From: Arthrobacter sp. NEB 688
GTDB lineage: Bacteria > Actinomycetota > Actinomycetes > Actinomycetales > Dermatophilaceae
Length of the DNA: 64,000 nt
NCBI RefSeq assembly: GCF_013201035.1
Contig: NZ_CP053707.1
Span: 310,001-374,000 of the forward strand
Reading direction: 5' to 3'
Below, piece after piece: positions 1 through 15,746 of this stretch. The position numbers were made by a program, and so were the translations under genes. Positions within the stretch are counted from its first letter, which is position 1. Every line of letters starts with the position of its first letter. Below the pieces are notes generated by a model. It ran no database searches, had not been told where the DNA came from, and saw nothing but the letters and a program-made list of their open reading frames with translations.

Positions 1-510
1 GAGGTCGTCGGCGTCTACCCGAACCGCGGATCCATCCCGACGGCGCTGTGGCAGAGCCTCTTCGACGGCGCGGTCGAGTCGATAGACATCGTCGCGTTCG
101 CTGCGAGCTTCCTGCACGACACCATGCCCGACGTCGATGATCAACTGCTCAAGAAGGCGCGATCCGGGGTGCGCGTGCGCTTGGCCTTCGGCGATCCAGA
201 CTGCGCTGCCGTCGCACTTCGAGGTGACGACGAAGGCATCGGTCCATCGCTGGCTGATCGATGCCGTCTCACGTGGAAGTACGTCGAGCCGCTGCTGGGT
301 GTATCAGAGATCGAAGCTCGAGCCCACAGCACGACGCTCTACTGCTCAATGTTCCGGTTCGACGGTGACCTGCTCGCCAACCATCACCTCTTCGGGGCTG
401 CTGCGAACCACTCACCAGTTCTTCACGTGAGGCGTCTTGTTGGGGGCCGGCTCTTCGACCACCACATGCGGTCCTTCGAGCGGGTCTGGGACGCCGCGCT
501 ACCGCAGTAA
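1..510 (+). CDS. DUF5919 regulator-type protein (C-terminal part, 5' end outside window)
   Basis: The reading frame is open from base 1, so this is the C-terminal portion of a longer protein; the first internal ATG at 124 is not its start. The visible 169 residues resemble the phospholipase-D-like DUF5919 domain that usually follows an XRE-type helix-turn-helix in actinobacterial proteins: VYPNRGSIPTALWQSLFDGA, then GVRVRLAFGDPD, EGIG and a closing SFERVWDAAL segment. The HTH half would lie upstream of the window. In other actinobacteria this type of gene often sits beside a Nudix hydrolase and an HD-domain protein, and both follow here, which supports the call. Substrate and DNA target are unknown; family recognition is from memory of the domain pattern. 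Confidence 0.7.
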   Translation, partial: EVVGVYPNRGSIPTALWQSLFDGAVESIDIVAFAASFLHDTMPDVDDQLLKKARSGVRVRLAFGDPDCAAVALRGDDEGIGPSLADRCRLTWKYVEPLLGVSEIEARAHSTTLYCSMFRFDGDLLANHHLFGAAANHSPVLHVRRLVGGRLFDHHMRSFERVWDAALPQ

Positions 511-583
511 CGCCATCAGCGCTCGGACAGAACGTGCCCCGTTGGCGACTTCGTGCTCGACGTACGGGGCTATCGTCTTGAGC

Positions 584-1054
584 ATGGGCAGGGTCGACTA
601 CATCGATGATCCCGAGGCGCCGACAGCGAACAGCGTCGTTCCCTCAGTCGTGGCGATCGTTCGAGACGGAGTAGGCCGAATCCTCCTGATTCACAAGACC
701 GACAACAACCTTTGGGCGCTGCCTGGAGGGGGTCACGAGATCGGCGAGTCGATCTCCGAGACGGTCGTGCGCGAGGTCAAAGAGGAGACTGGCTACGACG
801 TCGCGGTCGAGGCGATCACTGGTACGTATACGAACCCCCGTCACGTCATGGCCTACGACGACGGCGAGGTCCGGCAACAGTTCTCGATCGCCTTCCGTGC
901 CCGTCTCATCGGCGGCCAAGCTCGCACGAGCAGCGAAAGCAGTGAGGTCGAGTGGGTCAGGCCTGAAGACCTCCCTGCCTTGGACCTCCACCCGTCAATG
1001 CGGCTTCGCATCCAGCACGCGCTAGAGGACCGCAACTCCCCATTCCTCGGCTGA
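584..1054 (+). CDS. Nudix hydrolase
   Basis: A 156-residue Nudix-fold enzyme that would hydrolyse a nucleoside-diphosphate-linked substrate using a divalent metal. The complete Nudix box lies at residues 49-71 (G49, E55, R63-E64, E67-E68, G70), so it should be active. Substrate cannot be predicted. The frame stays open upstream to 437, but that part reads through the DUF5919 gene in another frame. ATG 584 begins the homologous part and lies 7 nt after a TATCGT -10-like hexamer (571-576), so a leaderless mRNA is possible. It follows the DUF5919 gene by 73 bp and its last 33 bp overlap the convergent HD gene. Confidence 0.85.
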   Translation: MGRVDYIDDPEAPTANSVVPSVVAIVRDGVGRILLIHKTDNNLWALPGGGHEIGESISETVVREVKEETGYDVAVEAITGTYTNPRHVMAYDDGEVRQQFSIAFRARLIGGQARTSSESSEVEWVRPEDLPALDLHPSMRLRIQHALEDRNSPFLG

Positions 1055-1576
1055 CGTGCGGCTGGCCGCGCGGGCGCAGCAGGCAAAAAGATACTCCGAT
1101 GACTTAAGCACTGCGCGATGCACCGGATCGCTCGTGCCATAGCGAGCAACGATCTCAGCGATCCGGTCGGCGACGCCTGTGTCAGTGCCTACAGGTGAAA
1201 CGGTGAGATCACACAGGATCAACGTGTCCAGCAGCTGCTGCGGAGGTCGCGCGTAGGCCATCAGTTCACCCAGCAAAGCTCGCTCGTCCGCTTCGAACTC
1301 CGCCCCTGTGTGGAAGGCCACGAGTGACACAACCATCGGATCCACGTTGCGCGAGGCGAGCCAGGCGGCACCGTCCAGCGCGTGCAGACCGGTGTAGGCG
1401 ACGGTCGGGGCGTATCCGATGTCATGTAGCCACGCAGCTGACACGAGGGGGTTCTCGTCCACGTCGTTGGTCAATCGCTGAGCGCGCGCCGCTACGCCTT
1501 CCACATGCCGCCAACGTCGCGGGTGGGAGTCGATCAGACACCCTTCCGCGAGCTGACGTGCCTCAGAAGGTCGCAT
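1022..1576 (-). CDS. HD-domain phosphohydrolase family protein
   Basis: A 184-residue protein with an HD-type metal-binding core: the first His in the RRWRHVEGVAARA helix, the paired HD in AAWLHDIGYAP, and a later conserved FHTG segment. HD proteins of this length usually act as phosphohydrolases on nucleotides. It converges on the Nudix gene and their coding ends overlap by 33 bp. Together with the DUF5919 and Nudix genes it forms a recurrent actinobacterial trio, suggesting a shared nucleotide or damaged-metabolite clean-up role (inference). A TATCTT hexamer 6 nt before ATG 1576 would fit a leaderless start. Confidence 0.75.
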   Translation of the reverse strand: MRPSEARQLAEGCLIDSHPRRWRHVEGVAARAQRLTNDVDENPLVSAAWLHDIGYAPTVAYTGLHALDGAAWLASRNVDPMVVSLVAFHTGAEFEADERALLGELMAYARPPQQLLDTLILCDLTVSPVGTDTGVADRIAEIVARYGTSDPVHRAVLKSSEYLFACCARAASRTSAEEWGVAVL

Positions 1577-1821
1577 GCCTCCAAGATACGCAGCAGCCGC
1601 GGACGGGCTTGCCTAGACGCTCACCTCTACACCTACCGGGGAACGCTGGGTACTCGTCCTGGTGCTGCGCCACCCCTCGGGCTCGCGGAGCGAGGTTCCT
1701 AGTTCCTACCCGCCCCGGCTATTGACCCGCGGGAGGGCTCAGGCCACGACCCGCACGAAGGAACGGGTGGCGCCCAGCCAGTCGCCTGTAGTCTGTGAGC
1801 ACTCAAGTGCAGGAGGAGCAG

Positions 1822-2838
1822 GTGGCGCGGACCTTGCCAGTCCAAAGGGCCAGCGGGTTGTCCCATCCGGAAGGGGTTGACCCGCCTGATCGCCTGCGCC
1901 TCTCTGTCACTGATGCATGCAACTTCGCTTGCTCTTTTTGCCACAATGAAGGCTCGTTTCAAACGCAGATTTCCTCGCGCAACCAGTTGCACCCCGAAGA
2001 TATGGCGTTCTACATCCGTGCGAGCGTAACTGCGGGGGTTCGCGCTATAAAGTTGACCGGCGGTGAGCCTCTCATCTATCAGCGCGATGGCATGGACATC
2101 GTTGCTCTTTCAGAATTAGCATGCGAGACGGCGGGAGCCGAGGTCAGCGTCTCTTTGACGACCAACGGGCAGCTTCTGAAACGCTTTGCAGAACGTCTTC
2201 CGGATACGGGCCTGTCACACGTCACCGTAAGCGTTCACACTCTCAATTTGGAGACGTTTAGAGCGGATATCAGTAACTCCGGAAGCCCTCGCCAACAAAT
2301 GGCGGGCATTCGCGCCGCCGCGGCCGCGGGGATGCACGTGAAGGCGAACGTGGTTGTGATGCCGGACACCGTCTCAGAGGTTAACGGTCTGTGCGCGGAG
2401 CTGTTCAGGGCTGGCGCACGCGAGGTCCGCCTTTACCCTGTCCTGTGGTCACCTTTTGCCGAGAAAGCGGCGTCTGAACTTTCACTTGCGGGCGACGATC
2501 TACTATCTCTTGCTTTCCGGGCATCGGGCCTCCCTATGACCAAGGACAGGCGTGATTACGTCTCAGCTTTCTTAGCGGCCGACAGCCCGCATTTGCCAAG
2601 ATCGGTGCGTCTATCTGGTCGCGTCGGGCCTATCGTGATGGATCGCATACGTAAGCGAAACGCCGGCGGGTCCGATGATGAGGGGGATTATGCAGTGAGG
2701 ATTTCAGCGCAAGGCGCCTTGCACGCACGCCTATTCAGTCCCCCAGTAGACCTATCCGTTGCCGCCTCAAGTGGAGATTTGCGGCTCGCCGTGAGGGCTA
2801 TCAACTTCGCACGCAGCGAGATCTCTGGCCTTGACTGA
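1822..2838 (+). CDS. Radical SAM enzyme, MoaA-like core without second cluster
   Basis: A 338-residue radical S-adenosylmethionine enzyme. C33, C37 and C40 form the CxxxCxxC site for the [4Fe-4S] cluster, and the SAM-binding GGEP motif is at residues 80-83 (KLTGGEPLIY). The N-terminal half looks like the MoaA/viperin branch, but the C-terminal cysteines that ligate a second cluster in MoaA are absent, so it is not a molybdopterin enzyme. GTG 1822 is chosen because AGGAGG stands 5 nt upstream; GTG 1795 in the same frame abuts a TAGTCT -10-like box (1789-1794) and has no ribosome site. It overlaps the next gene by 8 bp, so the two are translationally coupled. Codon use is more A+T-rich than in the core genes, indicating acquisition. 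The substrate is unknown. Confidence 0.85.
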   Translation: MARTLPVQRASGLSHPEGVDPPDRLRLSVTDACNFACSFCHNEGSFQTQISSRNQLHPEDMAFYIRASVTAGVRAIKLTGGEPLIYQRDGMDIVALSELACETAGAEVSVSLTTNGQLLKRFAERLPDTGLSHVTVSVHTLNLETFRADISNSGSPRQQMAGIRAAAAAGMHVKANVVVMPDTVSEVNGLCAELFRAGAREVRLYPVLWSPFAEKAASELSLAGDDLLSLAFRASGLPMTKDRRDYVSAFLAADSPHLPRSVRLSGRVGPIVMDRIRKRNAGGSDDEGDYAVRISAQGALHARLFSPPVDLSVAASSGDLRLAVRAINFARSEISGLD

Positions 2839-4363
2839 GCTGCCAATAATCGGCCTGCCGGGCGATCACCCTCTTCCCTGCGCCCTCAATCCGCGCAGCA
2901 TCAGTAAAATCCGGGCTTTCTATACTTTCGGGGTAGACCTTGGAGACTACTTCGGCGTCACCGATGATTCCATCGCCGCGCTCCAAGAAATCCGTGCCGC
3001 TGGGACGCTTCTGAGTCTTTACGAAGACGCCTTAACGGGCGTTGAAGGCTTTGCTCCGCAGGCAGATCGCATCGAAGCCGACGCAAACGAAGCAGTGAAC
3101 AAGGACGGCAAGGCCGTATGGTCGGACACTTTCATTAAGACTCGGGCCTCGTGGACAACGCCCTACCCCAGCTCGTTCGATATGGGCGCAGAACAGTTGC
3201 GCATTCAGGGTCGGATGCAGAGTTTAGATGCTTCTCTGGGGGGATGGGAGTTTGACACCATCCGCGGGTACTTGACCCCAGACGGTGTGGTGGTCCTAAC
3301 TGTTTCCTTCCGTCAAGATCAGGCACTCGATCTGGACGAAACCATCCGTGACCTGCGCACACTCCGACGCTTTGCGCGCAAGATGTTCGATCAACACGCC
3401 TCAAACATGGTGGGTGCCAGTTCTCCTATTCGCTCAATCCTCGAGCGTGAGGGATTCACTTGCGGCTCGCACCCGAACTCCGAAAAGGTTCGTTCTCATA
3501 GAACAATTTTCGTTCAGAGCATGCAGTGCGACTCGGGGAGAGTGTGCGACGCGCACCGCCTCCGCGACACAGCAGCCGTTGCAGGGCTTATGAATTTGGC
3601 GGCTTGGTACCCTACTTATCACGCAGAATACCGTGAGCGCTTGGCCAGTAAGGAGTTCGGCTACCGCTCAAATGAGCTCTACCTCGTCGATCGCGACACA
3701 ACTCTCTGCATCCAGAGTGGGTTCTGGGACGCCGAGAATCCACTTCACCTTTATATGGGCAACGTGCTACAGGCAGTGGAGTACCACGTGGGACTGCAGG
3801 CGCTCCTACGTGGTCAACTTCAGTACGCTCGCAAGCTCTACTCGACGAGCACCTCAGAAGCATCCAGCATGGATGCGGTGGAGGGCGTGCGACGGAGTAG
3901 AGCTATCCTCTCGGGCGCGTACGAGAGCTTAAATTATGCCGTCCTGGTGCTACACGGGTTCACGCGCCGGCTGCTTCGAGCCTTGGATGAGGAATCGGAG
4001 ATTTCGGCGATCCTGGAGGACGTTGAACGTCGCGTCGAGAACGTTTCTGACTCTGTGACGCTGCAGGCCTCCGTCTCAACGAGCCTGATGTCGGCGAATC
4101 TGCAAGGTTTCGGAAATGCGATTAACCGTCGCGTCTTGTGGGTGACGGTAGTCAGCGCAGTGGTCGGGTTGATCGCACTCTTGGTCGCGCTGCTCTCACT
4201 TTCTCAGTCTACACAGGATGGGGCAGCAAAGGACCACAATCCGACTCGGTCGACGACAGCTATCGCGCAGATACGCTATTCGGCCTTGAACGGCGACGAT
4301 GATCTATTTGACTTGCCCCCTTCTAATCGTCGTCGCGATCTTAGTTGCACGGCGGCGCTCTAA
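2831..4363 (+). CDS. Membrane-anchored protein of unknown function, partner of radical SAM enzyme
   Basis: A 510-residue protein that I do not recognise. About 430 presumably cytosolic residues carry no motif I can name. They are followed by one strong membrane helix at about 435-457 (VLWVTVVSAVVGLIALLVAL) and a 53-residue polar tail. The region just before the helix is helical, with an arrangement loosely recalling the CorA C-terminal stalk, but there is no GMN motif and only one helix. The start is TTG 2831 inside the stop region of the radical SAM gene; no upstream in-frame start exists and the next Met is over 100 residues in. Coupling to the enzyme suggests that it is either its substrate or partner, or a membrane effector acting on the enzyme's product (inference). 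Confidence 0.7.
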   Translation: MTELPIIGLPGDHPLPCALNPRSISKIRAFYTFGVDLGDYFGVTDDSIAALQEIRAAGTLLSLYEDALTGVEGFAPQADRIEADANEAVNKDGKAVWSDTFIKTRASWTTPYPSSFDMGAEQLRIQGRMQSLDASLGGWEFDTIRGYLTPDGVVVLTVSFRQDQALDLDETIRDLRTLRRFARKMFDQHASNMVGASSPIRSILEREGFTCGSHPNSEKVRSHRTIFVQSMQCDSGRVCDAHRLRDTAAVAGLMNLAAWYPTYHAEYRERLASKEFGYRSNELYLVDRDTTLCIQSGFWDAENPLHLYMGNVLQAVEYHVGLQALLRGQLQYARKLYSTSTSEASSMDAVEGVRRSRAILSGAYESLNYAVLVLHGFTRRLLRALDEESEISAILEDVERRVENVSDSVTLQASVSTSLMSANLQGFGNAINRRVLWVTVVSAVVGLIALLVALLSLSQSTQDGAAKDHNPTRSTTAIAQIRYSALNGDDDLFDLPPSNRRRDLSCTAAL

Positions 4364-4451
4364 GCGTTTCTCGACGGAAGCGGCGCCCTTGACACCTGTT
4401 TGGTTATCGATCCCGTTCAGCGCGTCGGACCATCCACCACTCTTTGCCCTC

Positions 4452-4480
4452 GGCCCTACGGCCTTTAGGGTCGTTGTTTT
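4452..4480 (+). terminator. Intrinsic terminator of the radical SAM operon
   Basis: A GGCCCTA / TAGGGTC stem (4452-4458 with 4466-4472, one G-U pair) with a 7-nt loop is followed by GTTGTTTT on the plus strand. That is a normal Rho-independent terminator, and it closes the two-gene operon. It overlaps the last codon of the convergent NlpC/P60 gene. Confidence 0.6.
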
Positions 4481-5553
4481 CTACTCGCGTCGGGCCTGCC
4501 CGCGACGACGTCGTCGTCGCCCCACGGTCTGTCAGCGGACAGATCTATAACTTTCACCTCGACGGTCCTCCCGGACGCCGGTGCGTGGATTACCTGGCCG
4601 TCAGCGACATAGAGAGCCACATGGTGGTAGACGCCGCTTGAGTCCCGAGGATCGTGAAAGAAGAGGAGGTCGCCTGGGCGGATCTCTGTGAGGGGCACGT
4701 GAGCCACAGCCGCAGCTTGATCGCTGGCGACTCGGGGAAGGGTGATTCCGGTCGCTTGGAACCAGACGTAGCGCGTGAAGCTAGAGCAATCGAAGCCAAC
4801 GACCCCTGTTCCGCTACCGAATCCCGGACCGGGTCCGGTCAGCGTCCCACCTCCCCAGGAGTAGGGGACGCCGAGCTGGCTCAGAGCTACATCGACGACC
4901 TTGCTGTCCTGGTTAAGGCCACGAGCCGCAGCGCAGGAAGCAGCGGCGATGCTCGGCGCGCCCACCAGCTGACGCGCGGTCGCCTCCCACTTCGCGTACG
5001 CAGTCGGGAAAGCGCTGACCTGGACCGCCTGGGCGGCCTCGGCCACTGGGAGCTCGAGATACCCCGGAACGCTGAGCAAGCCTCGTTGTCCGCCATGACC
5101 CCCACGGAAGAACATCGACGTCGACTGGATCGGATCGAGGCGCTCGGCGCGGCTACCCCAGGCATCCCGCTGCTGGAACATCCCGATCGAGTCGCGGTCG
5201 CCGAAGGGCAGGTTGCGCAGGCCTGATTCTTGGAGCGCCGTGCTGATCGCAACTACCCACCCTTGTTGAGGAACACCGAGTTCTCGACCGACAGCCACGA
5301 TGGTCTGGGCGTTGGCCAGCTGCTCGGAGTCGAAGGACGAGACGCTCACTACAGCTGGACGATCGACGGTCCCGCAGCCCATCACGGCCGGCTCGGAGTC
5401 AGAAGGCTCGCCTGCGAGCAGCGACATCGTGAAGACGGTCAATGCGAGGAAACCGACGAGTGCCACAGGCAGCACCACAGCCAGAACACGCACGAGCAAG
5501 CGCCACAGGCGCCGCTTCAATTCGGCAGCGGCAAGAGCAGTGACCGGGTCCAC
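4465..5553 (-). CDS. Conjugation cell-wall hydrolase: lytic-transglycosylase-like plus NlpC/P60 (C40) peptidase
   Basis: A 362-residue bifunctional wall hydrolase of the kind that opens peptidoglycan for a type IV secretion channel in Gram-positive bacteria. One membrane helix lies at about 22-45. A lysozyme/transglycosylase-like segment has the likely catalytic E109 (ALQES) and a GMFQQR motif at 124-129. A C-terminal NlpC/P60 domain follows, with C256 (FDCSSF), H310/H311 and H323 as the likely triad. It is the last gene of the minus-strand transfer operon, 3 bp after the TcpC-like gene. Its role matches TcpG/VirB1-type hydrolases, and the catalytic residues look intact. Confidence 0.85.
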   Translation of the reverse strand: MDPVTALAAAELKRRLWRLLVRVLAVVLPVALVGFLALTVFTMSLLAGEPSDSEPAVMGCGTVDRPAVVSVSSFDSEQLANAQTIVAVGRELGVPQQGWVVAISTALQESGLRNLPFGDRDSIGMFQQRDAWGSRAERLDPIQSTSMFFRGGHGGQRGLLSVPGYLELPVAEAAQAVQVSAFPTAYAKWEATARQLVGAPSIAAASCAAARGLNQDSKVVDVALSQLGVPYSWGGGTLTGPGPGFGSGTGVVGFDCSSFTRYVWFQATGITLPRVASDQAAAVAHVPLTEIRPGDLLFFHDPRDSSGVYHHVALYVADGQVIHAPASGRTVEVKVIDLSADRPWGDDDVVAGRPDASRKQRP

Positions 5554-5556
5554 GGC

Positions 5557-6123
5557 TCAACCCATCGCCCTGCCGACGAGAGCTGGGGACTCCTCGGGCT
5601 CGATGCCGTCGACAAGCCACTCGGAGCGAACTCGTTCGAGGCTGACGAAGACTGCCCCGCCATCCGTGGGAACCCGCACCCTTGCGGAGGCCGCGAAGCG
5701 CTCAACGGTCTCGGCGCTTCCCAGCGCACGCGAGGCGGGGACGCTGGCTGACGAGGAGTCACGCAGCAACCTGGTGAAGCGAGCCGTCGCAAAGGAGGAG
5801 CACTCGGAGCGCCACGAATCGACATCCGCGTCAGGACGAGCCCAGACCTCGGTGAACGCGAGCGCCACATCCTCCGGGGCTGCCCTCGACGAGGACGAGG
5901 TGGGGCCGGGGCGGGGGGCAGATGGAGCATCGCTCGATAAAGAGCGACCTACGGACGAGAGAGGCGTCGCCTCAGTAACCGGTGCCTCGTCGACCGTGGG
6001 CTCGCCCAGCGCGGAGACCCGGCCGAGCGCGCCGACCAGCGTCGTCGCGACCAGCAGCGTGACCGCCAGGTTGCGCCAGGACCACAACGGCCAGCGCCAC
6101 CACTCGGGCCGGCCGCTAGTCAT
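5557..6123 (-). CDS. Conjugal transfer protein, TcpC/VirB8-like
   Basis: A 188-residue protein with a short cytoplasmic start, one membrane helix (NLAVTLLVATTLVGALG, about residues 18-34), a low-complexity linker and a compact C-terminal domain (about 100-185) of the size of the NTF2-like domain in TcpC/VirB8 proteins. Such proteins form the periplasmic or wall-side scaffold of the conjugation channel. It overlaps the upstream VirB6-like gene by 4 bp and is followed at once by the wall hydrolase. Assignment rests mostly on topology and position in the operon, not on a diagnostic motif. Confidence 0.6.
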   Translation of the reverse strand: MTSGRPEWWRWPLWSWRNLAVTLLVATTLVGALGRVSALGEPTVDEAPVTEATPLSSVGRSLSSDAPSAPRPGPTSSSSRAAPEDVALAFTEVWARPDADVDSWRSECSSFATARFTRLLRDSSSASVPASRALGSAETVERFAASARVRVPTDGGAVFVSLERVRSEWLVDGIEPEESPALVGRAMG

Positions 6124-8117
6124 GACGCCTCCGCCTGTTCCGTCGGGACCGCGTCGGAGTGCCGCAGCATGGCCCCGGTCCGCGGGTCGTACACGAAGTG
6201 CCCGAGGCCGTCTTGGTCGAGCTGCTCGTTCGCACCGTGGGCAGGCTCCGCGCGGACGGGTTGCAGCCGGGGACTCGGTGCTGGTGGCACTAGCTCACCG
6301 GCGACGACGTCCGGCGAGACCTTGGTATCGGGCAGTCCGCCGCTCTGGCGGTGCACGTCGTGGGGCATTGGCGCAGGTGGTGTCGCAAGGTCGGATGCGG
6401 CCTGGCGGCCCATCGAACTCGGACCTGCGCTGATGAGATGGGCAGGAACGACCGTCGACCGGCTCAGGCCACCGTCGCTCGTGACGTCCCAGACCACGCG
6501 CTCCCGGCCGAACGTCTCGCTGCGTGGTGGCCGTGTCCCCGCTCGTGGCGTCGCACCCTCGCTGGGGATCGTCGGCTCGGGCGCGGAATCAGGCGTCTCC
6601 TCGATCGCGTGCTTCGTGCCGTCGTTCACGCCCTGCCGGGTGACGAGATATCGAGTCACCTGCCGTCCGATGCGACGGCCCCGACTCCGACGGCCGGCAT
6701 GGCCGAAGATCCTCGTGAACGACAGCAGGGGTGCCGTCAGCACGAACGCCGCGAGCGTGATGACGAGGCATAGGACCAAGGCCATGATGCCCATTCCGGC
6801 GTCGTCCGCGGTGCTGAGGACAGCCGTGATCGCGGCGGTGTAGATCACGGAGCCTGCCGAGAACGCCACGACATTGATGACCGCGGCACCGCCGATATTG
6901 GCCATCTGCTTCACGATCCCGGACATCGGCGCGAACACCCCCACGACCGCAGCCGCGGGCAGGAACATCACGAGCAGGCGCAGCATGACGAGGCCGGCGA
7001 GCAGGAAAACGTCGGCCACCAGCCGGAACAGATCGACGAAGACCGCGCCGAGCAGCGCGAATGCTCCGGTGCCCATCCGTCCGCCGGCCTTCCCCTGGAG
7101 GACCGCGTAGGTGGCGGGGTCCTCCTCGGCGATCTGTTCGGCAGTCTCTTTCCAGGTGGATGCCTTGCCCTCCGTCAGCTGCTTGCTCGCCTCGGGCGTC
7201 GTTGCCGCTGCTTCCTCGGACCACGACACTGCGCTGGCCCGGAAAAGGGCTGGGCCCCAACGCTTCGCGGCCGCCGAGTCAGAGGACCCCAACTGGCCGC
7301 GCAGCCACGCGTCGTACAACACCCGGTCGACAGTCAGCGCTCCCTGCCCGCGGGCAGCTCCTTGGCCAGCTGGCGTGGGCCCATCGACCCCGCCCGTCCG
7401 CGCTTGGAGGGTCCCAATGGTCGAGGTGATCGCGCCGTCGAAGAACCGGCTGGCCTGGGACGGATACTGCGTGATAACCGCGACGACACCAAGGATCAGT
7501 ACCGCCCAGACCGCTCCTCGCAGGACGCCCGGGAAGTGCCCGCGTACCGCCTGGAGGAGCAGCATCGCGGCAACACCGAAGAGGGCGACGCCGCCCCACG
7601 GGCTCCAGATGGCGTCGCGCAGCCGCTGGGTCACGGTGCCGACGACTTGGTCGAGTGGGCCCATGTACGAGGCCGGGTCGGCCACCTTGTTGTGGAGTCC
7701 GTTTGTCGCCGCGGTCAGCCACACCGCTGTCGACAACATGACGTTGCCGATCATGGTGTCGGTGGTGGCCGATGGGTCTCGCACGGATCCGCCGCAGCCG
7801 AGGTCGTAGGTGTTCCAGGTAAGGCCGGCGTATCCGTACTGGTCGTAGATGCTCGTAGTCGGGTTGTTCGCGAAGGGGTCTGCATTCGGTGGCAGAGGGT
7901 CGGGCTTGGGGTCCAGAGCTCCTGCAAGGCCGGTGCCAGGGCGTCCCGGCAGTGGTGCGTCCTTGCAGTCCGGGATCCCCGGAATGCTTGGAGCCTCCAC
8001 TGCACGGTGCGCAGTCGAGGGTGGGCTCGCAAAGCCGTTTGGTGCGCCGCCGATCGCCAGCACCCCTACGGCAGTGGCCGTCCCGAGAATGGCAAGGAGC
8101 CTCTGCATTCTTCCCAT
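6120..8117 (-). CDS. Polytopic conjugation channel protein, VirB6/TrbL-like
   Basis: A 665-residue membrane protein with a signal-peptide-like N-terminus (MGRMQRLLAILGTATAVGV), a proline-rich extracytoplasmic segment, then several long hydrophobic segments in the middle and a polar C-terminal tail of about 180 residues. This is the layout of VirB6/TrbL/TcpH-type inner-membrane channel proteins. ATG 8117 is used because an AGGAG precedes it inside the end of the VirB4 gene, whose stop is one base upstream; the open frame extends to 8330 but reads as shadow of VirB4. Its stop overlaps the next gene by 4 bp. Confidence 0.7.
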   Translation of the reverse strand: MGRMQRLLAILGTATAVGVLAIGGAPNGFASPPSTAHRAVEAPSIPGIPDCKDAPLPGRPGTGLAGALDPKPDPLPPNADPFANNPTTSIYDQYGYAGLTWNTYDLGCGGSVRDPSATTDTMIGNVMLSTAVWLTAATNGLHNKVADPASYMGPLDQVVGTVTQRLRDAIWSPWGGVALFGVAAMLLLQAVRGHFPGVLRGAVWAVLILGVVAVITQYPSQASRFFDGAITSTIGTLQARTGGVDGPTPAGQGAARGQGALTVDRVLYDAWLRGQLGSSDSAAAKRWGPALFRASAVSWSEEAAATTPEASKQLTEGKASTWKETAEQIAEEDPATYAVLQGKAGGRMGTGAFALLGAVFVDLFRLVADVFLLAGLVMLRLLVMFLPAAAVVGVFAPMSGIVKQMANIGGAAVINVVAFSAGSVIYTAAITAVLSTADDAGMGIMALVLCLVITLAAFVLTAPLLSFTRIFGHAGRRSRGRRIGRQVTRYLVTRQGVNDGTKHAIEETPDSAPEPTIPSEGATPRAGTRPPRSETFGRERVVWDVTSDGGLSRSTVVPAHLISAGPSSMGRQAASDLATPPAPMPHDVHRQSGGLPDTKVSPDVVAGELVPPAPSPRLQPVRAEPAHGANEQLDQDGLGHFVYDPRTGAMLRHSDAVPTEQAEAS

Positions 8118-8118
8118 G

Positions 8119-10659
8119 TCAGGCGCTCTCCTGCAGCACGTCGCTTGCAGCCTCACCCAGACCCGGCGCCGTCGCAGCGGCGCGCCGAGCGCGGGTCTTC
8201 GTGGGATCGGCGGTGGTGTCCAACGCCTCGAGCACCTCGGGGTGGGCGGACAGGTCCATCCGGATCCGCTCCACTCCTCCGGCGCCGTCGCTGAACACGA
8301 ACTCGCGAGCACCCCGCCGTCCGGTGGCATTCGGGCGCGACAGCGACTCGAAGATCGCCTCGTACCCCTGCCCGGTCTGGATCCCAGGGATGAACCGCAG
8401 GGCGTCCTTCTGCGCCTGCTCGTCGGTCAGGCGGCCGATGAACGCGGCGGACACGAGGTTCGCCAGATCTAGCCGCAGCAGGTCTGACGGGTTCTGGCTG
8501 GCCATCAGTACGCGGGTGTTGTGCTTGCGGCTGTCCCGGCCGGCGCGCTCGATGAAGCGCCGGCCGGTGGTGAACGTCGACAAGGCCCATGCCTCGTCGA
8601 TGAAGATGCCCTTTCGAGCATGGGCATCGCCGAGGTACATGCCCCGCTGCGCCAGCCAGGCCGCGAGGTAGAGGACGCACATGCTCAGCCGCTCATCGAG
8701 GTCCTCAGTCCCCTTGCTGTGCTCGTCGGGGAACGCTAGGCCGCGCAGGGAGTACACGGTGAGCAGCGCCTCGTCGGAGCCGTAGTCGTTGCGGTAGCCG
8801 GACGGGAACAGCAGGCGACCGTGGCCGGTGTGGGCTGCCTCGGAGAGGAAGTCGCGCATGTACCCCGCGTGCCGACGCAGCTCGTCGTCACCGGAGATCT
8901 GCCCGAGGGCGGCAACGACGTCGCTCAGGCTCGAGGTGCTGGTTGCCGACACTGCACCGACGGCTCGCATCAGGGCGACCTCGGTGAGGACGTGGTCCTG
9001 CATCTGTCGGGGAAGGATCGATCGCAGCACGCTGCTGGTGAGGAGGCGTCGCGTGTCGGCGGCGTTCTCCTGAGCGGCGCGCCATTCGCCATCGCTGTCG
9101 TAGTGCTCGCGCCGCGGTTCGGCGATGACGCGGTACGTGCACAGCGCGCCCGGTGGTGCGTCGAGGAGGTCGACGGCCTGGGACACCGCCGCGAGCTGTG
9201 GGAGCCGACAGAGCGCGGTCAGGCGCCCCGATGGGTCGAGGACCGTCCACGACACGCCCTGCATCACCGTGCGGTAGATGATGTTGCCGCCAGCGGTGGA
9301 CTTGCCCCCGCCGAGCCCCGCGCAGATCACGGCCAGCCCGGACTCCTCGGCCTGCTCGGTGGCCAGCCAGGGCTCCCAGGCGACCACGCGCGCCGAGGTG
9401 CCGGAGGTCTCCCCGAGGTGGATGCCGACGCGGTCACCGACCTTTGCCGTCGCGGTCGGGACTGCGGCTGCAAGGGTCGTCACGGGCATGCGACGCCGGT
9501 AGGCCGTGGTGCCGAGCTTCTCGCCGGGGATGAACTCGCGGGCAACGGCGTACTGGTCGGCCGGCCGGGAGATCGTGATCTGCGGAGCGAACAGCTGACG
9601 GACTGCCGCGGCGCGCTCGAGCGCCTCCTCTTCGGTCTGGCCAGAGACCGCGAGGCGGTACCAACCTGCGGTCCGGGTGCTGAGCCCGGAGAGGCCGGTC
9701 GAGAGCTCGTCCTCGGCGTGCAGCGCCTTCGACGCCTGCCGGTCGAGCGCCCCCGGGGCGGGCTCGGCGTGCTCGACCTCGTAGTGCTCCTTCTGCGAGC
9801 GGATCCGCTGGATGTTCCGGCGCATCGCTGACCCGACTCGTCCGGCGTCCTCGATGCTAATCCGCGCGGACCACTCGATCGGGAACGGCAGCTGGTCGGT
9901 GCGCTGGATCCACGGCACGCCGGGTGGGATCTCGAGGTCGGTCATCCGGCCCACCGAGAGCACGCAGACATGCCGCTCGACGATGGCTCCGTTGGCCTCG
10001 CCTCGGACGCTGATGGTCCGTCCGTACGGCACGGCCGACCAGGTGACGTGGTCGGTGAACTCGTGGAGGTCGTCCTTCTCCCAGTCGGGGTGCTCTGCGG
10101 TTCCGAGAGTCAGCGGGGCGGGGAGTCCGAGCGAGCAGGAGCGGTGGAGCAGCCATTCGAGCTCACGCGGGGTGGCCGGGGTTCCGTCCAGCCCGGGGTG
10201 GCGCAGGAGGTCGTCGATCTCGCGGACCGGCTTGGCGAGGGCGGTGACTTCACGATCCGCCATGCGCGGCGCGAGTCCGCTCAGTGCGTGGAGCAGTCGC
10301 CTCGTGCTGCCGAGGTCGACCCCGAGGTAGACCTCCTTATCGGCCATGCTCCTGCCGGCGAGGTGCAGTTGGTCGCGGATGAGGTGCTCGGGCCATCCGG
10401 GCAGTGGCGCGGGAGCGTTGGCGTCATGTGCCTCGGCCCATCGCGACACCGGGTACGGCCTCGTCGTGACGCGCAGGTGGAGGTTTCGGCGCGACAGCTG
10501 GGCGAGCGCATCAGCGGTGTCGATGATCAGCTGCTCGCGCACGGTGTCGGGTCGGAAGGACCAGCCTTGCGGCCCCATCCGGTACCAGGCGGTGACCCGG
10601 TCGCTGGTCACGGTGCAGTGGCCGGTGATCCGCCGCAGTGACAGTCCGCGGCTGCTCAC
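8119..10659 (-). CDS. VirB4/TraC-like conjugation ATPase
   Basis: An 846-residue ATPase that energises assembly or substrate passage in a conjugative type IV secretion system. Walker A (GLGGGKST) is at about 446-453 and Walker B (GIFIDEAW) at about 684-691, followed by a conserved ASQNP sensor segment (LMASQNPSDLL). The N-terminal 400 residues match the less conserved membrane-interaction part of the VirB4 family. It lies in a six-gene operon, overlapping the PrgI-like gene by 4 bp. This is the strongest evidence that the locus is a conjugation module rather than a secretion leftover. Confidence 0.9.
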   Translation of the reverse strand: MSSRGLSLRRITGHCTVTSDRVTAWYRMGPQGWSFRPDTVREQLIIDTADALAQLSRRNLHLRVTTRPYPVSRWAEAHDANAPAPLPGWPEHLIRDQLHLAGRSMADKEVYLGVDLGSTRRLLHALSGLAPRMADREVTALAKPVREIDDLLRHPGLDGTPATPRELEWLLHRSCSLGLPAPLTLGTAEHPDWEKDDLHEFTDHVTWSAVPYGRTISVRGEANGAIVERHVCVLSVGRMTDLEIPPGVPWIQRTDQLPFPIEWSARISIEDAGRVGSAMRRNIQRIRSQKEHYEVEHAEPAPGALDRQASKALHAEDELSTGLSGLSTRTAGWYRLAVSGQTEEEALERAAAVRQLFAPQITISRPADQYAVAREFIPGEKLGTTAYRRRMPVTTLAAAVPTATAKVGDRVGIHLGETSGTSARVVAWEPWLATEQAEESGLAVICAGLGGGKSTAGGNIIYRTVMQGVSWTVLDPSGRLTALCRLPQLAAVSQAVDLLDAPPGALCTYRVIAEPRREHYDSDGEWRAAQENAADTRRLLTSSVLRSILPRQMQDHVLTEVALMRAVGAVSATSTSSLSDVVAALGQISGDDELRRHAGYMRDFLSEAAHTGHGRLLFPSGYRNDYGSDEALLTVYSLRGLAFPDEHSKGTEDLDERLSMCVLYLAAWLAQRGMYLGDAHARKGIFIDEAWALSTFTTGRRFIERAGRDSRKHNTRVLMASQNPSDLLRLDLANLVSAAFIGRLTDEQAQKDALRFIPGIQTGQGYEAIFESLSRPNATGRRGAREFVFSDGAGGVERIRMDLSAHPEVLEALDTTADPTKTRARRAAATAPGLGEAASDVLQESA

Positions 10660-11081
10660 GACTCGCTCCCAGACGTGGATCCGGTCGCAGGGGAGTGGTT
10701 ACCCCGAGGCCGGGTCCGACCCGGACGCGCGGGGACTGCGCGGATCCGGGCCGGACGAATGGTGGCGGTCGTCATCCGCGTGGTCGCGCGCGGTGCGCTG
10801 ATCTCGTTGGCGAGTCCCCTCAGGACCGCGCTGACGGGCCGGTCGTGGTCGACGACGCGCAGGATCAGCTTCGTCACGGCGACGGTCACAAGCATCGAGT
10901 AGGCCAAGGCGAAGAAGCCGAACCCGATGCCGAGGCGACGCTCGAGCATCTGGACCAGGACGAAGACCGCGGCCCCGACGCCGTAGGCGACGTAGCGGGC
11001 CCGGAAGGGGAGGGTCTTGCCCGGAGGGCCGAGCCAGACCGCGTTGACGTTGTAGATCTCGTCATCGACCGCGAGGCGCAT
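10656..11081 (-). CDS. Small conjugation membrane protein, PrgI/TcpE-like
   Basis: A 141-residue protein with two adjacent membrane helices (about 28-47 and 52-72: YVAYGVGAAVFVLVQML and GFGFFALAYSMLVTVAV), then an Arg/Pro-rich polar tail. Two-helix proteins of this size directly before the VirB4 gene are usual in Gram-positive transfer operons (PrgI/TcpE). The ATGA overlap with the VirB4 start (10656-10659) shows translational coupling. Confidence 0.6.
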   Translation of the reverse strand: MRLAVDDEIYNVNAVWLGPPGKTLPFRARYVAYGVGAAVFVLVQMLERRLGIGFGFFALAYSMLVTVAVTKLILRVVDHDRPVSAVLRGLANEISAPRATTRMTTATIRPARIRAVPARPGRTRPRGNHSPATGSTSGSES

Positions 11082-11084
11082 GGC

Positions 11085-11339
11085 TCAGCCCGTGATGAGG
11101 CCGGCGAGCCAGGTGCCCACGTCGTCTGCTCGGCCGGTGGTGGCGATGCCCAGAACCCCGAGAGCGATGACGACGCCGGCGACGACGCGCATGGCCTTGG
11201 CGTTGTCTCCGCGCTGGGCGAAGACGAAGAGCATGACGGCGATGAGTAGCAGGAGCAGCGGGATGATGTTGTCCTTGATCCAGGACTGCAGGTTGGTGGT
11301 GTCGCCGGTGGCGCTGGCGAGCGCGACGAACTCGTTCAC
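11085..11339 (-). CDS. Small two-helix conjugal transfer protein
   Basis: An 84-residue protein with two hydrophobic helices (about 24-42 and 52-70) separated by a short basic loop (QRGDNAKAMR), the topology of VirB2/TrbC pilin-like subunits. It is the first gene of the transfer operon, 3 bp before the PrgI-like gene. It may be a pilin-type or channel subunit; sequence alone does not decide. Confidence 0.5.
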   Translation of the reverse strand: MNEFVALASATGDTTNLQSWIKDNIIPLLLLLIAVMLFVFAQRGDNAKAMRVVAGVVIALGVLGIATTGRADDVGTWLAGLITG

Positions 11340-11680
11340 GGTGTCCCCTAACGTCGAGCCTCGGAGGGCCCGGAATGGTCCTCCGAGACCTAGTCGGCTC
11401 CGCTCGGGGTGCTTCGTTCAACAAGAAGCAGAAACCCTTACCAAGACTTTGAACAGCCGTGCTCGTGGACGGTCGCGTTGGGTGGGCTGGCTCCCCCACT
11501 CCCCATCATCCGGGCCCGCCGGAACGCGTCAAGGGCGCCCACGGCGTCACTGCGTGATGGCCGACGGCCACCCTTGACCCACTCCGCCGGGCCCTACAGC
11601 TGCTCCGCTAAGGGGATCAGCCTCAGACAGGTGAACGTCCTCGGCAACTACTGCGCGCCTGCATGAACTGCGGTTGGGCC
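11340..11680 (-). other. Non-coding leader of transfer operon with dyads
   Basis: No convincing gene lies in these 341 bp. Two secondary structures stand out. CTCGGAGG / CCTCCGAG (11360-11367 and 11380-11387) is a compact hairpin just before the first transfer gene. TCAAGGG / CCCTTGA (11529-11535 and 11571-11577) encloses inner TCAC/GTGA and GGC/GCC pairings. Either could be a regulatory leader, a terminator or part of a transfer origin; nothing seen fixes the choice. Confidence 0.35.
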
Positions 11681-12616
11681 TTAGACCACGGCCTGAAGGA
11701 TCTTCCTGCGGTAGTAATCAGCCCACTCACCACCGAAATCCAACCGTGCAAGATGCACCCGGCTTGCTGCGCCGGCCAGAGCACGCATGTGACCGTGCTG
11801 AGCGATTGGGTGCGCGCGCAACCTTTCCTCTAGGTAGGCACCGAGATGTTTTCCGCTGAGCAAGGGGAAGTGCCCGTTTCTCCTCAACGCCTTTGAAAGT
11901 CTCTCCTCGATGACTTGCCGCCTCACCACGGGATCCTCGCAGGTCGCCGTGGTGGAGACCAGCTCTGACTCTGCCGCCGCAGCGATGTCGCTTACGGGAC
12001 CAAAGACGGGCGAGTTGATACGAGACTGGCTTTTGGGCTTTGTTCGACACTGCGAGCCAAGCGCGACTGATATGACGCACAGTTCCAGCCATGTGGACCA
12101 TTTATCAGCCAGTTCATGCTGCCATTTTCCTAGGTCAGCGGCCACCCTGGCCGCTTCACCGTCGGACAGGGAAGCCAAATCCGCCAGCGCACGGACGGGG
12201 TCCGCACTGTCGAAAACTTCAGCCTCAACGTTGTACGTCCGCGTCAAGGCTATATTCTTAGTTCTGGGCAACTGACTCTTGATGATCGGATCGAAGTCTC
12301 TATCCATAAAGAAGAGTGCGCTCACCCTTCCGCGTGAATTTGCTTGATTCAGTTTTCTCTGATCGCGCAAATACTCATAATATTCCTCCAAGCCCGATTT
12401 TCCTTCGTGGCCCTGCACGGCGACTATTCGCTCCACAGTGTATTCGAAGCCAGTCGCCGCCAGTGCAGTTCTACTAATGCCATCATAGAACGGTACGTCG
12501 AGTTCACGCCCCTCGACAAAAACGAATAGGCGATAGCGGCTGGTCTTCATGCGCCACGCCATCGATGCGGGCGTTCTCTTCGGTCGACCACCCGAAGACG
12601 GCATGGAGCCGCTCAC
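11681..12616 (-). CDS. TOPRIM/DUF4435 putative nuclease, PARIS AriB-like
   Basis: A 311-residue protein with a TOPRIM-like metal site: E35 in FVFVEGRELD and D105/D107 in LFFMDRDFD. That spacing is typical of DUF4435 proteins. In the PARIS anti-phage system a DUF4435 nuclease (AriB) works with an ABC-type ATPase (AriA), cutting host tRNA once a phage anti-restriction protein is sensed. Here the ATPase gene is immediately upstream with a GTGA overlap (12613-12616), the same gene order. Function is inferred from this pairing; subfamily membership is not proved. Confidence 0.65.
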   Translation of the reverse strand: MSGSMPSSGGRPKRTPASMAWRMKTSRYRLFVFVEGRELDVPFYDGISRTALAATGFEYTVERIVAVQGHEGKSGLEEYYEYLRDQRKLNQANSRGRVSALFFMDRDFDPIIKSQLPRTKNIALTRTYNVEAEVFDSADPVRALADLASLSDGEAARVAADLGKWQHELADKWSTWLELCVISVALGSQCRTKPKSQSRINSPVFGPVSDIAAAAESELVSTTATCEDPVVRRQVIEERLSKALRRNGHFPLLSGKHLGAYLEERLRAHPIAQHGHMRALAGAASRVHLARLDFGGEWADYYRRKILQAVV

Positions 12617-13761
12617 AACTCGAAGATTTTCGACTCAGGGACAGTGGCTAGGATTTCTGGCGAATGGGTGGCCAGGACCAGTTGGCAATCTGGATTTACA
12701 GTCTTTATCGACGCAACGAGCCTTGATTGCCAGTCGAGGTGCATCGACAGTTCGGGCTCGTCGACAATAAGCGGGTTGAACTCTGCGCCGAGCGCCTCAA
12801 GAAGGAGGAGAAGAAGTTGACGCTCACCAGAGGAGAGCGTGCGAAGGTCCAGATGTCTTCCTTCGACATCGAAGCCAATGGTGTGCGCTCTAACCACCGC
12901 CCTTTTGGATCCTGAAAACAGGTCGTTCAGGAGGTCCTGCAGGGCAATCATTGGACGCTCCGCCTCGTCGACTTCGAGGTTCAGATCCAAGATGCTAGCG
13001 ACAATCTCACGTTGCGTCGGCTCCGACACGTAGCGCTTGATAAAGCTGCTCTTGTTGATCCGTCCAGACACGCCTTGGCCACGCAGGAAGTCTCTGACAA
13101 TGGCGTAAGCATCTTCGGCGTCGAGCTGGAGTCCGCGCTCGTGCCTTGTGCCCGCAAAACTGAGCTCCATCACGCGCGCCAACCCGCGGCGTTGCGCCAA
13201 AGCCTGAGCTTCAAGAGACTGGTTGCTTACTCGGATCCAGAGAACTTTGATGGCTTCGGCAAATGCGTCATCGAAGGCAGACTCGTCCATAGCTTCACGC
13301 CTGCCGGAGACCCTTTCTAGCGGACGGGAGCTCGGGCTCAGCCTAGTAATTGGCAGGTAAGCGTGAGCGAAAGACCGCGACGCGTACTCAACATTTGCAG
13401 GTTTAGTCATCCATCGCAATTCTCGTGCGACCTGAGCAGTCCTGACTCTGCGGCTTTGAACTTCCTGCTCTTCTCCCCATAGATCCAATTCCCCGGCCAT
13501 AGCAGCAGCAGGCTTGGTAAGAGTCCGAACGAACGACTGCTCCCTGTGATGGCTATGAAACCGAACGACTGCTCTTTCAAACGCGACGTTCGTCAGTCCC
13601 GCCGCGTCGTTACGCAGCGCGCTATCCAGAATACGAAGAAGTGATGTCTTGCCACTTCCATTCAAGCCCCAGAAGACGTTCAAGTCGGGGTGCAAGTCGA
13701 AAGCGACTGCACCTTCCCGTCCTGCTAGCCCTTGGACCTCGACTGACTCGATGCGGGTCAT
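12613..13761 (-). CDS. ABC-type AAA ATPase, PARIS AriA-like
   Basis: A 382-residue SMC/OLD-like ATPase with all ABC motifs: Walker A at 32-40 (GLNGSGKTS), signature LSSGERQ at 309-315, Walker B LIVDEPE at 331-337 and H-loop ATHS at 364-367. The short inter-domain region lacks long coiled coils, as in AAA_15/AAA_21 defence ATPases. Start ATG 13761 follows the conserved beginning MTRIESVEVQG; TTG 13773 would add four residues. It is paired with the DUF4435 gene and flanked by a restriction-modification pair, so a defence role is likely. A Gabija- or OLD-like role is less likely because no UvrD helicase is present and the TOPRIM is a separate protein. Confidence 0.75.
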   Translation of the reverse strand: MTRIESVEVQGLAGREGAVAFDLHPDLNVFWGLNGSGKTSLLRILDSALRNDAAGLTNVAFERAVVRFHSHHREQSFVRTLTKPAAAMAGELDLWGEEQEVQSRRVRTAQVARELRWMTKPANVEYASRSFAHAYLPITRLSPSSRPLERVSGRREAMDESAFDDAFAEAIKVLWIRVSNQSLEAQALAQRRGLARVMELSFAGTRHERGLQLDAEDAYAIVRDFLRGQGVSGRINKSSFIKRYVSEPTQREIVASILDLNLEVDEAERPMIALQDLLNDLFSGSKRAVVRAHTIGFDVEGRHLDLRTLSSGERQLLLLLLEALGAEFNPLIVDEPELSMHLDWQSRLVASIKTVNPDCQLVLATHSPEILATVPESKIFEL

Positions 13762-14378
13762 GCGCGTTACCAATCTGATAGCCGGGCGGAGACTTATACC
13801 CGAGTGGAGGTTACGGAGGGTGCAGCTGCGGTGACTCTAGCGCGGCCTGGGCAGCAGATCCTCCGCGTTGTGTGACCGCCACCCACCTGCGCGCAGCGAG
13901 GCGTCGGAGGCCACAAGCTAAACAGCTTGCCCAGCAGAAGATGCTGAGTTCGGGGGGCACTGATCCGGGCTCGAGGACCACCCAGCATTTGGGATGCGCG
14001 ATGCCGTCACGGTCCGCCTGATCGCTGCGCCGGCCATCCCAGAACGCTGCGGCTGAAGTTGTCAATCGACTTGGACAGCGGCGCACCGTTCAACTCGGCG
14101 ACTGCTGAGTGTGCCTCTACTAGATCAAGGCCTCGCTTCGCTCGGCGGCGCCTGCGGGCGGCGCTGGCGCGCCGTCCTCGGTCGGCCCTCCGACTTAAAC
14201 TGCGTCGGCGTGCCTTTAACCGGACCGACAATGGGCGGCCGCGCAAGAGTCAACCTCAAGCATTCGTGTAGCCAGCCAGATACGCGTACGTATTCTTAAA
14301 ACAGTTCTACGAGTACTCGGACGTCTCGCTCGTTATAGTCTTCGTGAATTCGCGATTACGACTGGCCGGGAGATTCTC
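13762..14378. other. Intergenic gap inside the defence region
   Basis: I see no gene with convincing codon pattern or ribosome site here. The GC-rich part (about 14,110-14,200) contrasts with an AT-rich stretch near 14,270-14,350, so this may be a junction between two separately acquired cassettes with gene remnants. The left edge should carry the promoter of the AAA/DUF4435 operon. Confidence 0.4.
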
Positions 14379-15746
14379 TCAACTAGGGTCAAGCACTATC
14401 TCGGGTCGCGCAATCCATTTGTCCAAGAGTGCTTCCAGGTCGCCATTGGCCAGTTTCCTCTCCACGGCACCAAGATCGAATATCTCTTGAAGGAGCGGGT
14501 CGTTTAACAGCGGGTCGTTGAACGCAAGTATCGCATCGTACAGATGCCGCAGCGATCCTTCCGCGATCCTGTATTCACCCTCCTCAAGCGTGAAATCGCG
14601 CCCGTGGCCCCAGCGCACGTCAGACAGTCCATCGATGTAACCAGGGCGCAGAAAGAGCGGATCAAGGTTGGCGACCAGAGCACCCCTTACAGGCACACTT
14701 GCGGCGTCGTCCCTATAGTAGGAACCGAACTTCAACAACTGATAAGTGCCTTTTTTTACGTCATCAGTCCGCCCAAGCCCAGGCTTAGTCTTATTGGAGT
14801 CGATCTCGTCACCCCAGCCGTTCACGAGATACGCGAGCGCAGCAGTCCGGCCCGCTCTTTGCGTCTTGGGGGTTCTGTAAGCCGCGTACAGCTCGATCCA
14901 CGCCTGCAGATAACTAGCGGCATTGGCGGGTACTGAGAAGTAGTCGATCAGCGGTTCATAGGGCCAAGACTCCCCCTCTCGTTCACCGAGAGGGATTGCC
15001 GTCTCTGCGTGCGGGATAGCTACAGCGAATTCTCGGCCTTGCAGCGTTAAATCCACCAATGAGTGTTGCCGGTACTCTACTGGGCCGTCGGGGCCCTCCT
15101 GCAGCATTGGTTCTTCCAGTTCAGTCACCAGAGGAAAGGAGACCATTGGGGAAGCTTTAATCTCGAAAAGGACCAAAAGATCGTCACGGAAGCCAATGGC
15201 ATCAACGTCATGCGACTGTTTTGTGATCGTGGCGATTTCGAACGGATTCTCGTTAGCGGCAGCCACCAACTGGAGAAGAAGGGCGATCGCGACGGTGGTT
15301 ATCTCACCGATGTGATGGCTCGTCGGCTTGTGCTGTGCGCCACTCAGCCGCCCCTCCAAGCCTCGGTCAAGGCAGCACCGAGGACACTGTTTCAGGAAAG
15401 AGTAATAGGCGACAGCCGGCTCACCCCCTCGGTGGCAGTAGATCCACTTATTGTTGACCAATCGCCCGTGGACATATTCTGCATTACAAATTAGGTCGAA
15501 TCCCGCGGATAGCATCAACCCGAAGAGTTTCGCCTCGTCGTGCGCCTCAACTAAATTGGCTCGAGTGGCCGACTCCTCGGCGCTACCAATGACGCTACGA
15601 AATGACCGGATAAATGTGCCTAGCAAGCGAGCTGCGTTCGCCCCATCCACGTACTGCGAGTTGGTCAAGGAGCGATCCATCAGCCTTTCAAGGTCTGAAA
15701 TCTTTGGCGCGGCCGAGCTGTCTCGATACTCGGGAAATTCAATCAC
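14379..15746 (-). CDS. Type II restriction endonuclease, PD-(D/E)XK type
   Basis: A 455-residue protein, probably the restriction enzyme of a type II system. The PD-(D/E)XK core is visible as HDVDAIGF (D182) followed by FEIKAS (E195, K197), with an upstream Glu (E148). A cysteine set (C87, C104, C121, C124) in the N-terminal third looks like a structural zinc site. Its start overlaps the stop of the C5 methyltransferase gene by 4 bp, so the methylase is made first. The recognition sequence cannot be read from the protein. A+T content is higher than in the chromosomal genes. Confidence 0.8.
   Translation of the reverse strand: MIEFPEYRDSSAAPKISDLERLMDRSLTNSQYVDGANAARLLGTFIRSFRSVIGSAEESATRANLVEAHDEAKLFGLMLSAGFDLICNAEYVHGRLVNNKWIYCHRGGEPAVAYYSFLKQCPRCCLDRGLEGRLSGAQHKPTSHHIGEITTVAIALLLQLVAAANENPFEIATITKQSHDVDAIGFRDDLLVLFEIKASPMVSFPLVTELEEPMLQEGPDGPVEYRQHSLVDLTLQGREFAVAIPHAETAIPLGEREGESWPYEPLIDYFSVPANAASYLQAWIELYAAYRTPKTQRAGRTAALAYLVNGWGDEIDSNKTKPGLGRTDDVKKGTYQLLKFGSYYRDDAASVPVRGALVANLDPLFLRPGYIDGLSDVRWGHGRDFTLEEGEYRIAEGSLRHLYDAILAFNDPLLNDPLLQEIFDLGAVERKLANGDLEALLDKWIARPEIVLDPS

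Follow-up and report, generated by a model that had tools for sequence, protein, structure and literature searches.

A MoaA-like radical SAM enzyme and a single-helix membrane protein form a rare mobile gene pair that is a candidate bacterial defence system

A 64,000-nucleotide stretch of DNA from Arthrobacter sp. NEB 688 (bases 310001-374000 of its single-contig, 4.08-Mb genome; hereafter the window) carries two adjacent genes, of which the first (gene 1) encodes a MoaA-like radical S-adenosylmethionine (SAM) enzyme, in appearance a cofactor-making enzyme put to another use, and the second (gene 2) a putative membrane-anchored partner. By sequence comparison we demonstrate that this pair is a conserved, if rare, mobile unit. 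It is a good candidate for a new bacterial immune system because it travels on mobile DNA beside anti-virus genes in three distant bacteria, and a role in defence is likely. The fuller reading that we prefer, in which the cassette acts against phages or other mobile elements, the enzyme makes a small molecule and the membrane protein serves as effector or sensor, has in our judgement a slight balance of probability in its favour.

The two open reading frames (ORFs; Table 1) overlap by 8 bp (2831-2838), as had been stated in an earlier note made from the letters of the window. The same note had described a CxxxCxxC motif and a GGEP motif in the first product and one membrane helix near the C-terminus of a 510-residue second product, and all of these are present, the helix by hydrophobicity. 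The radical SAM motif of gene 1 is CNFACSFC, with its cysteines at residues 42, 46 and 49 if counted from GTG 1795 and at 33, 37 and 40 if counted from GTG 1822; the residues 33 and 37 named earlier agree with the second numbering. GTG 1822 is the likelier true start, giving a protein of 338 amino acids (aa), because AGGAGG at 1811-1816 precedes it. Both genes are A+T-rich, which had also been noticed, with a GC content of 58.5% in gene 1 and 56.8% in gene 2 against 71.1% for the whole window. The proposed intrinsic terminator fared less well: a hairpin is present at 4451-4473, but a scan of 1500-4700 returned four sites where shuffled sequence gave 2.6 on average, and this one stands only weakly above chance. 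No two-hexamer promoter was found 5' of gene 1, the sole match (2093-2122, with 0.7 expected in shuffles) lying inside the gene; the earlier note had named a lone -10-like box.

Gene 1 is, by profile and fold comparison, nearest to MoaA, yet it is not MoaA. It matches the Pfam Radical_SAM family at E 3.8e-24, and the cysteines of CxxxCxxC are invariant in all three enzyme copies (the window copy and the two described below). The best NCBIfam model of each copy is a MoaA model, and all three copies miss the cut-offs of all three MoaA models. Against TIGR02666 (MoaA) the window copy scores 133.8 bits and the other two 125.0 and 142.5, with a cut-off of 284.05, and against NF038283 (prokaryotic viperin) the scores are 53.8 bits and then 64.4 and 50.2, with a cut-off of 180. 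The earlier note had pointed to the viperin branch. We rejected this placement, MoaA being closer both by NCBIfam (E 6.4e-39 vs 1.6e-14 for viperin) and by fold, where Foldseek with a low-confidence model of gene 1 ranks MoaA entries 1-4, aligned over 325-341 columns, and puts BlsE next, ahead of entries for NifB and viperin. A housekeeping MoaA identity was likewise rejected, on the missed MoaA cut-off, the loss of the cluster cysteines described below and the presence of a separate, true host MoaA encoded elsewhere in the genome (374 bits). In a tree of 33 rows (the three enzyme copies and 30 MoaA-type sequences) the three enzymes form one clade with support 100/98, although the tool flagged long branches.

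In MoaA the C-terminal cluster motif is CysX2CysX13Cys, according to passages of PMC5352715, and this auxiliary cluster holds guanine N1, according to the title of Lees 2009 in the reference list of that paper. In an alignment with six MoaAs, the stretch FC..CNRLRLTADG.L..CLFS of MoaA becomes SDEG.YA.R..A.G.L in the pair's enzymes (DDEG in the window copy). None of the three enzymes keeps any of the three auxiliary-cluster cysteines, which all six MoaAs have, so the three cluster ligands are lost. The C-terminal GG tail, which is essential in MoaA, is absent from all three enzymes and present in all six MoaAs. MoaA also binds GTP through Arg17, Arg266 and Arg268. These are the three arginines removed together in PDB 2fb2, and in each of the three enzymes the equivalents of R17 and R268 are kept while R266 is replaced by Ala. 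Since the guanine-holding cluster is missing, gene 1 most likely acts on a different substrate, a phosphate-bearing small molecule other than GTP.

Gene 2 encodes a large protein with one strong hydrophobic segment, at about residues 435-458, and in all three copies a single C-terminal membrane helix is predicted from hydrophobicity, the rest being soluble and presumably cytosolic. Counts of Lys plus Arg before and after the helix are 2/1, 3/3 and 2/0 (in the last, one residue is left after the counted stretch) and hardly inform on orientation. The soluble parts of the copies share the conserved motifs GKAxW, AGLxNxAxWYxxY, GYRxxExYLxDR, GFW and HGF. The earlier note had placed gene 2 outside known families, and no Pfam, NCBIfam, PADLOC or PHROGs model is significant (PADLOC for the window copy only). 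A clear metabolic family, named there as a finding that would count against the idea, did not appear in profile searches. Solved structures gave no match by sequence (best profile match E 0.23), and the predicted fold had no match among viral models at E 0.001.

A possible kinship with CorA, taken here as a lead, has three weak lines in its favour. CorA is the sole Pfam match of gene 2 (E 0.29, 10.9 bits vs a cut-off of 27), and the Kineosporia and Gordonia copies do not match it in Pfam at E 0.5. Foldseek with a poor model of gene 2 returns CorA in all of the top 9 of 237 hits (E 0.02-0.19). Alignment of gene 2 to CorA by hhalign gives E 0.0054 with a probability of 6.7%, its score being reached by 0 of 40 block shuffles, while a control of CorA against VirB6 reached 0.027. 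CorA family members end in two membrane helices joined by a GMN-containing stretch; all three gene 2 copies lack the second helix and GMN, and have no GxN in their last 120 residues.

Two further copies of the pair were found. An order-wide search with gene 2 returned one real relative (E 3e-25), in Kineosporia sp. R_H_3, which belongs to the same order as the host, and there a relative of gene 1 lies directly upstream of it across a 32-nt gap. The other copy emerged when viral contigs were scanned with both enzymes; its contig matches Gordonia oryzae at 99.8%, its enzyme is 33% identical over residues 9-319, and a gene 2 relative begins 4 nt after the enzyme gene. The enzyme gene is thus directly upstream of its partner in all three loci (8-bp overlap, 32-nt gap and 4-nt gap, taking first start codons), which bears out the claim that the two genes are a unit; homologues that always lie apart, which the earlier note had set against its idea, were not seen. 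The gene 2 copies share only 24-31% identity. Kineosporia and Gordonia are the closest two of the three, for enzyme and partner alike, as expected of joint inheritance. A divergent MoaA paralogue next to an unrelated membrane gene by chance is very hard to maintain here: MoaA-like domains are widespread (360 of 396 phylum genomes have a match), but the same order at three distant loci already contradicts chance adjacency, and the three enzymes are a single clade that misses the MoaA cut-off and the cluster cysteines. We regard it as highly improbable.

Other searches underline how rare the pair is. Gene 2 was found in its own genome only among 396 genomes of the phylum, in its own and that of Kineosporia among 396 of the order (at E 1e-3; a further 31 matches were reported, all weaker), in Kineosporia only among 13 genomes of its family (two-row profile), and in its own only among 394 of the class (three-row profile); these genome sets overlap. 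A scan of genome contigs for GYRxxExYLxDR gave 10 contigs, two of them real (Kineosporia and Gordonia) and eight without similarity (tblastn, E 0.01), and a C-terminal enzyme motif occurred among viral contigs in that of Gordonia only. Pattern scans with single gene 2 proteins, two-row gene 2 alignments or a single enzyme gave nothing. In plasmid and phage records no gene 2 relative was found for the window protein, nor in plasmids for the Kineosporia protein; enzyme searches of these records returned MoaA-type and other radical SAM matches below 60% identity. Besides Gordonia, the viral-contig scan gave two loci (L072 and L073) that were set aside, as their enzyme matches are weak and they have no gene 2 relative. 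Both hold an identical-looking two-gene stretch (L072:3367-4847, L073:9833-11313), in which the gene after a 331-aa radical SAM-like protein has 162 aa and no relationship to gene 2.

The tight coupling of the two genes at all three loci would also suit an enzyme that is a maturase, activating the membrane partner or another protein with no diffusible small molecule, and many radical SAM enzymes beside a single partner do modify that partner. We consider this rather unlikely, for no NCBIfam cut-off is reached among the matches listed for gene 1 (25 of 82), SPASM maturases included, and its best-matching kin act on nucleotides. There is also no conserved small precursor, with 0 cross-locus matches among 159 ORFs of at least 25 aa in flanks of 1.2-2.1 kb. 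A maturase of a ribosomally synthesised and post-translationally modified peptide (RiPP) with its precursor is unsupported on these same two counts, the cut-offs and the small ORFs.

In all three loci a recombinase gene lies at most 9 kb from the pair and recognised defence genes lie within about 15 kb. The nearness to defence genes proposed earlier therefore stands as a count over three loci and not as an enrichment. In the window the neighbours are a PARIS-like system and type II restriction-modification (R-M) genes, in keeping with the island described in the earlier note: an AriA-like ATPase (PADLOC AriA PDLC04164, E 3.2e-34), a restriction endonuclease matching PDLC03413 over all 455 residues (1092.5 bits) and a C5 methyltransferase (PF00145, 6.1e-37) were found, while the 311-aa protein in the AriB position has no PADLOC or Pfam match. 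The Kineosporia pair adjoins a phage-type integrase gene and has MADS-like neighbours (mad6 1.7e-55; mad8 2.2e-20, DndH being slightly better; mad7 1.3e-6); no attachment repeat of this island was found, taken as a same-strand repeat of at least 14 bp of the tRNA-Arg region. At L069:7721-19620 these mad8/DndH-, mad7- and mad6-like proteins form an operon with a UvrD-type helicase, possibly a divergent MADS-like system. Upstream of the Gordonia pair are a serine recombinase and a TrwB/VirD4-like coupling protein, and downstream, about 7 to 14 kb away, are a CapP-like protein, a C5 methylase, a SacI-type endonuclease, GmrSD and an Mrr-like protein. This cluster (L098:8187-15519) also holds a regulator-like gene beside the CapP-like protein. 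For scale, a passage of PMC11706625 states that, of the housekeeping genes orn and nrnA, 2% have a PADLOC system no more than ten genes away.

The host element is about 24 kb long and carries the pair, because a 37-bp piece of the 3' part of tRNA-Lys is repeated at both ends. The tRNA-Lys at the left end lies outside the window (genome C1:303341-303416), and the repeats are at L085:11379 and at 17326-17362 of the window. Beginning upstream of the window and reaching into its first 1.6 kb are a phage-type integrase gene and a NUDIX gene, both by Pfam, and replication protein, FtsK-like, XRE regulator and HD genes named by reading only. With the HD gene excepted, these modules are the ones that a passage of PMC11706625 lists for actinomycete integrative and conjugative elements (AICEs). 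The pair sits between the HD/NUDIX genes and a VirB4-type module. VirB4-like matches at E 1e-50 occur in 11 of 119 genomes of the family set, its own included. As sister stretches we took nine other matches with 72-76% identity, in eight genomes, each with 17.5-18.5 kb of sequence that may not span the whole element; matches of 34-35% in two further genomes were left out. The sisters (L086-L094) share the module, and the AICE-like family combines it (NlpC, VirB6 and VirB4-type genes) with an FtsK-like gene. An unassigned protein of about 225 aa, with stretches of similar sequence such as RARFLMTS, follows NlpC/P60 in several of them (e.g. L090:8170-8847) and was not noticed there in the window element.

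Table 1. Features of the window, with positions counted from its first base.
Feature	Position	Strand	Basis or remark
Gene 1, MoaA-like radical SAM enzyme	1795..2838	+	ORF, GTG start, 347 aa
Gene 2, partner	2831..4363	+	ORF, TTG start, 510 aa
Ribosome-binding site AGGAGG for GTG 1822	1811..1816	+	read from sequence
Terminator-like hairpin with T-rich tail, 3' of gene 2	4451..4473	+	hairpin scan, weak
AICE-like element, right part	1..17362		37-bp direct repeat; integrase and NUDIX by Pfam
Right attachment-site repeat	17326..17362	+	repeat of tRNA-Lys 3' part
Conserved module beside cargo slot: NlpC/P60, 188-aa gene, VirB6-like (by reading), VirB4-like AAA_10 protein	4465..10659	-	
PARIS-like: AriA-like ATPase (12613-13773), 311-aa protein in AriB position (11681-12616)	11681..13773	-	PADLOC
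Type II restriction endonuclease (14379-15746) and C5 cytosine methyltransferase (15743-16954)	14379..16954	-	

Because it is absent from all nine sister stretches (tblastn, E 1e-8), the pair is cargo, not backbone, of the AICE-like element. One sister has Mokosh in its slot, which lies between NlpC/P60 and HD (L090:8967-13669; MkoA with 756 bits over nearly the whole model, MkoB with 229 bits over part of its model). The flanks are under 1 kb apart in L093 and L094, as are NUDIX and NlpC/P60 in L091, and PADLOC on ten slot proteins from six other sisters gave no match for seven and weak matches (23-30 bits) for three. The slot is thus a site for cargo, and in one of the nine sisters that cargo is clearly a known defence system.

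This setting bears on the view that the pair serves the mobile element itself, through entry exclusion, transfer control or maintenance, and not phage defence. Its place beside the VirB4-type module in the window, and near a coupling protein and a serine recombinase in Gordonia, would suit such a service, and membrane proteins are typical of exclusion. The nine sister stretches with the same module do without the pair, however, the recombinases differ (serine type in Gordonia, phage-type integrases in the window element and the Kineosporia island), and we know of no radical SAM exclusion enzyme; this view appears unlikely.

Several points weigh against the preferred reading of a defence cassette. 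There are only three copies of the pair; the mad7 match at the Kineosporia locus is weak; and the Gordonia R-M and GmrSD genes lie 8-12 kb from the pair. Mobile elements hold many non-defence genes, the cargo of such elements makes a less favourable baseline than housekeeping genes do, and eight of the nine sister slots showed no clear known system (ten proteins of six were scanned, L093 and L094 being unscanned). The loss of the cluster cysteines could also mean a changed role outside defence, and the two structure models are of low confidence, with pLDDT (predicted local distance difference test) of 54.1 and 58.5.

Under the defence reading we infer a defence function, a substrate class and a coupling of ligand to membrane. 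Gene 1 would carry out 5'-deoxyadenosyl-radical chemistry on a phosphate-bearing small molecule, not GTP, and would release a modified phosphate-bearing metabolite. Gene 2 would bind this product, or would sense infection jointly with the enzyme, and would then act at the membrane as effector. A more detailed and rather doubtful version is that a MoaA-like ancestor lost its guanine-binding cluster and came to make an infection-triggered, nucleotide-derived alarm, which a CorA-derived single-helix protein would bind before breaching the membrane; the pair would then be immunity of the signalling type, powered by radical chemistry.

Viperins, which make chain-terminating nucleotides, are to our knowledge the only radical SAM antivirals. 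A second immune branch, close to MoaA and joined to a membrane protein, would if true widen the radical chemistry of immunity, and might tie that chemistry to effectors in the membrane, much as SAM-AMP is tied to CorA. The idea is directly testable because the two genes are adjacent and three divergent copies are at hand. In the literature searched, with bioRxiv and most subscription journals outside, we recognised no published account of a defence role for a radical SAM enzyme paired with a membrane protein, and a newer name is possible, PADLOC being from 2023. According to a passage of PMC10250203, a defence hotspot of Pseudomonas is flanked by a radical SAM protein, and in passages of PMC13391042 and PMC10853773 the superfamily comes up with other meanings.

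Among known systems, Mokosh, PARIS, MADS, type II R-M and GmrSD are neighbours or slot-mates of the pair, and the PADLOC models of these systems, searched at E up to 1, match neither of its proteins. MoaA (GTP 3',8-cyclase of molybdenum cofactor synthesis) shares with gene 1 the radical SAM core, the fold and the equivalents of R17 and R268, and the alignment of the Kineosporia enzyme with the MoaA profile covers 9-294 of 336. It differs in having the CxxCx13C auxiliary cluster and the GG tail, and gene 1 scores below three MoaA cut-offs; the pair's enzyme is further set apart by its membrane-protein partner and its mobile-element setting. Viperins make 3'-deoxy-3',4'-didehydro (ddh) nucleotides. 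Prokaryotic viperin (pVip) resembles gene 1 as a radical SAM enzyme without an auxiliary cluster, the pair too lies in a defence setting, and a nucleotide-like substrate of gene 1 would be a further likeness; gene 1 is, however, far less similar to viperin than to MoaA, and the PADLOC pVip models have viperin alone or with a kinase, and no membrane partner. In type III CRISPR, as a passage of PMC10600005 has it, SAM-AMP activates a CorA effector, so that a SAM-derived nucleotide drives a membrane protein. Compared with that effector, gene 2 differs in its one helix, its lack of GMN and its non-significant CorA similarity, and it is paired with a radical SAM enzyme in place of Cas10. The large N-terminal part, the C-terminal membrane part and the weak CorA similarity of gene 2 are the points of likeness, and by analogy the SAM-AMP/CorA system may be a parallel for how the pair would act at the membrane.

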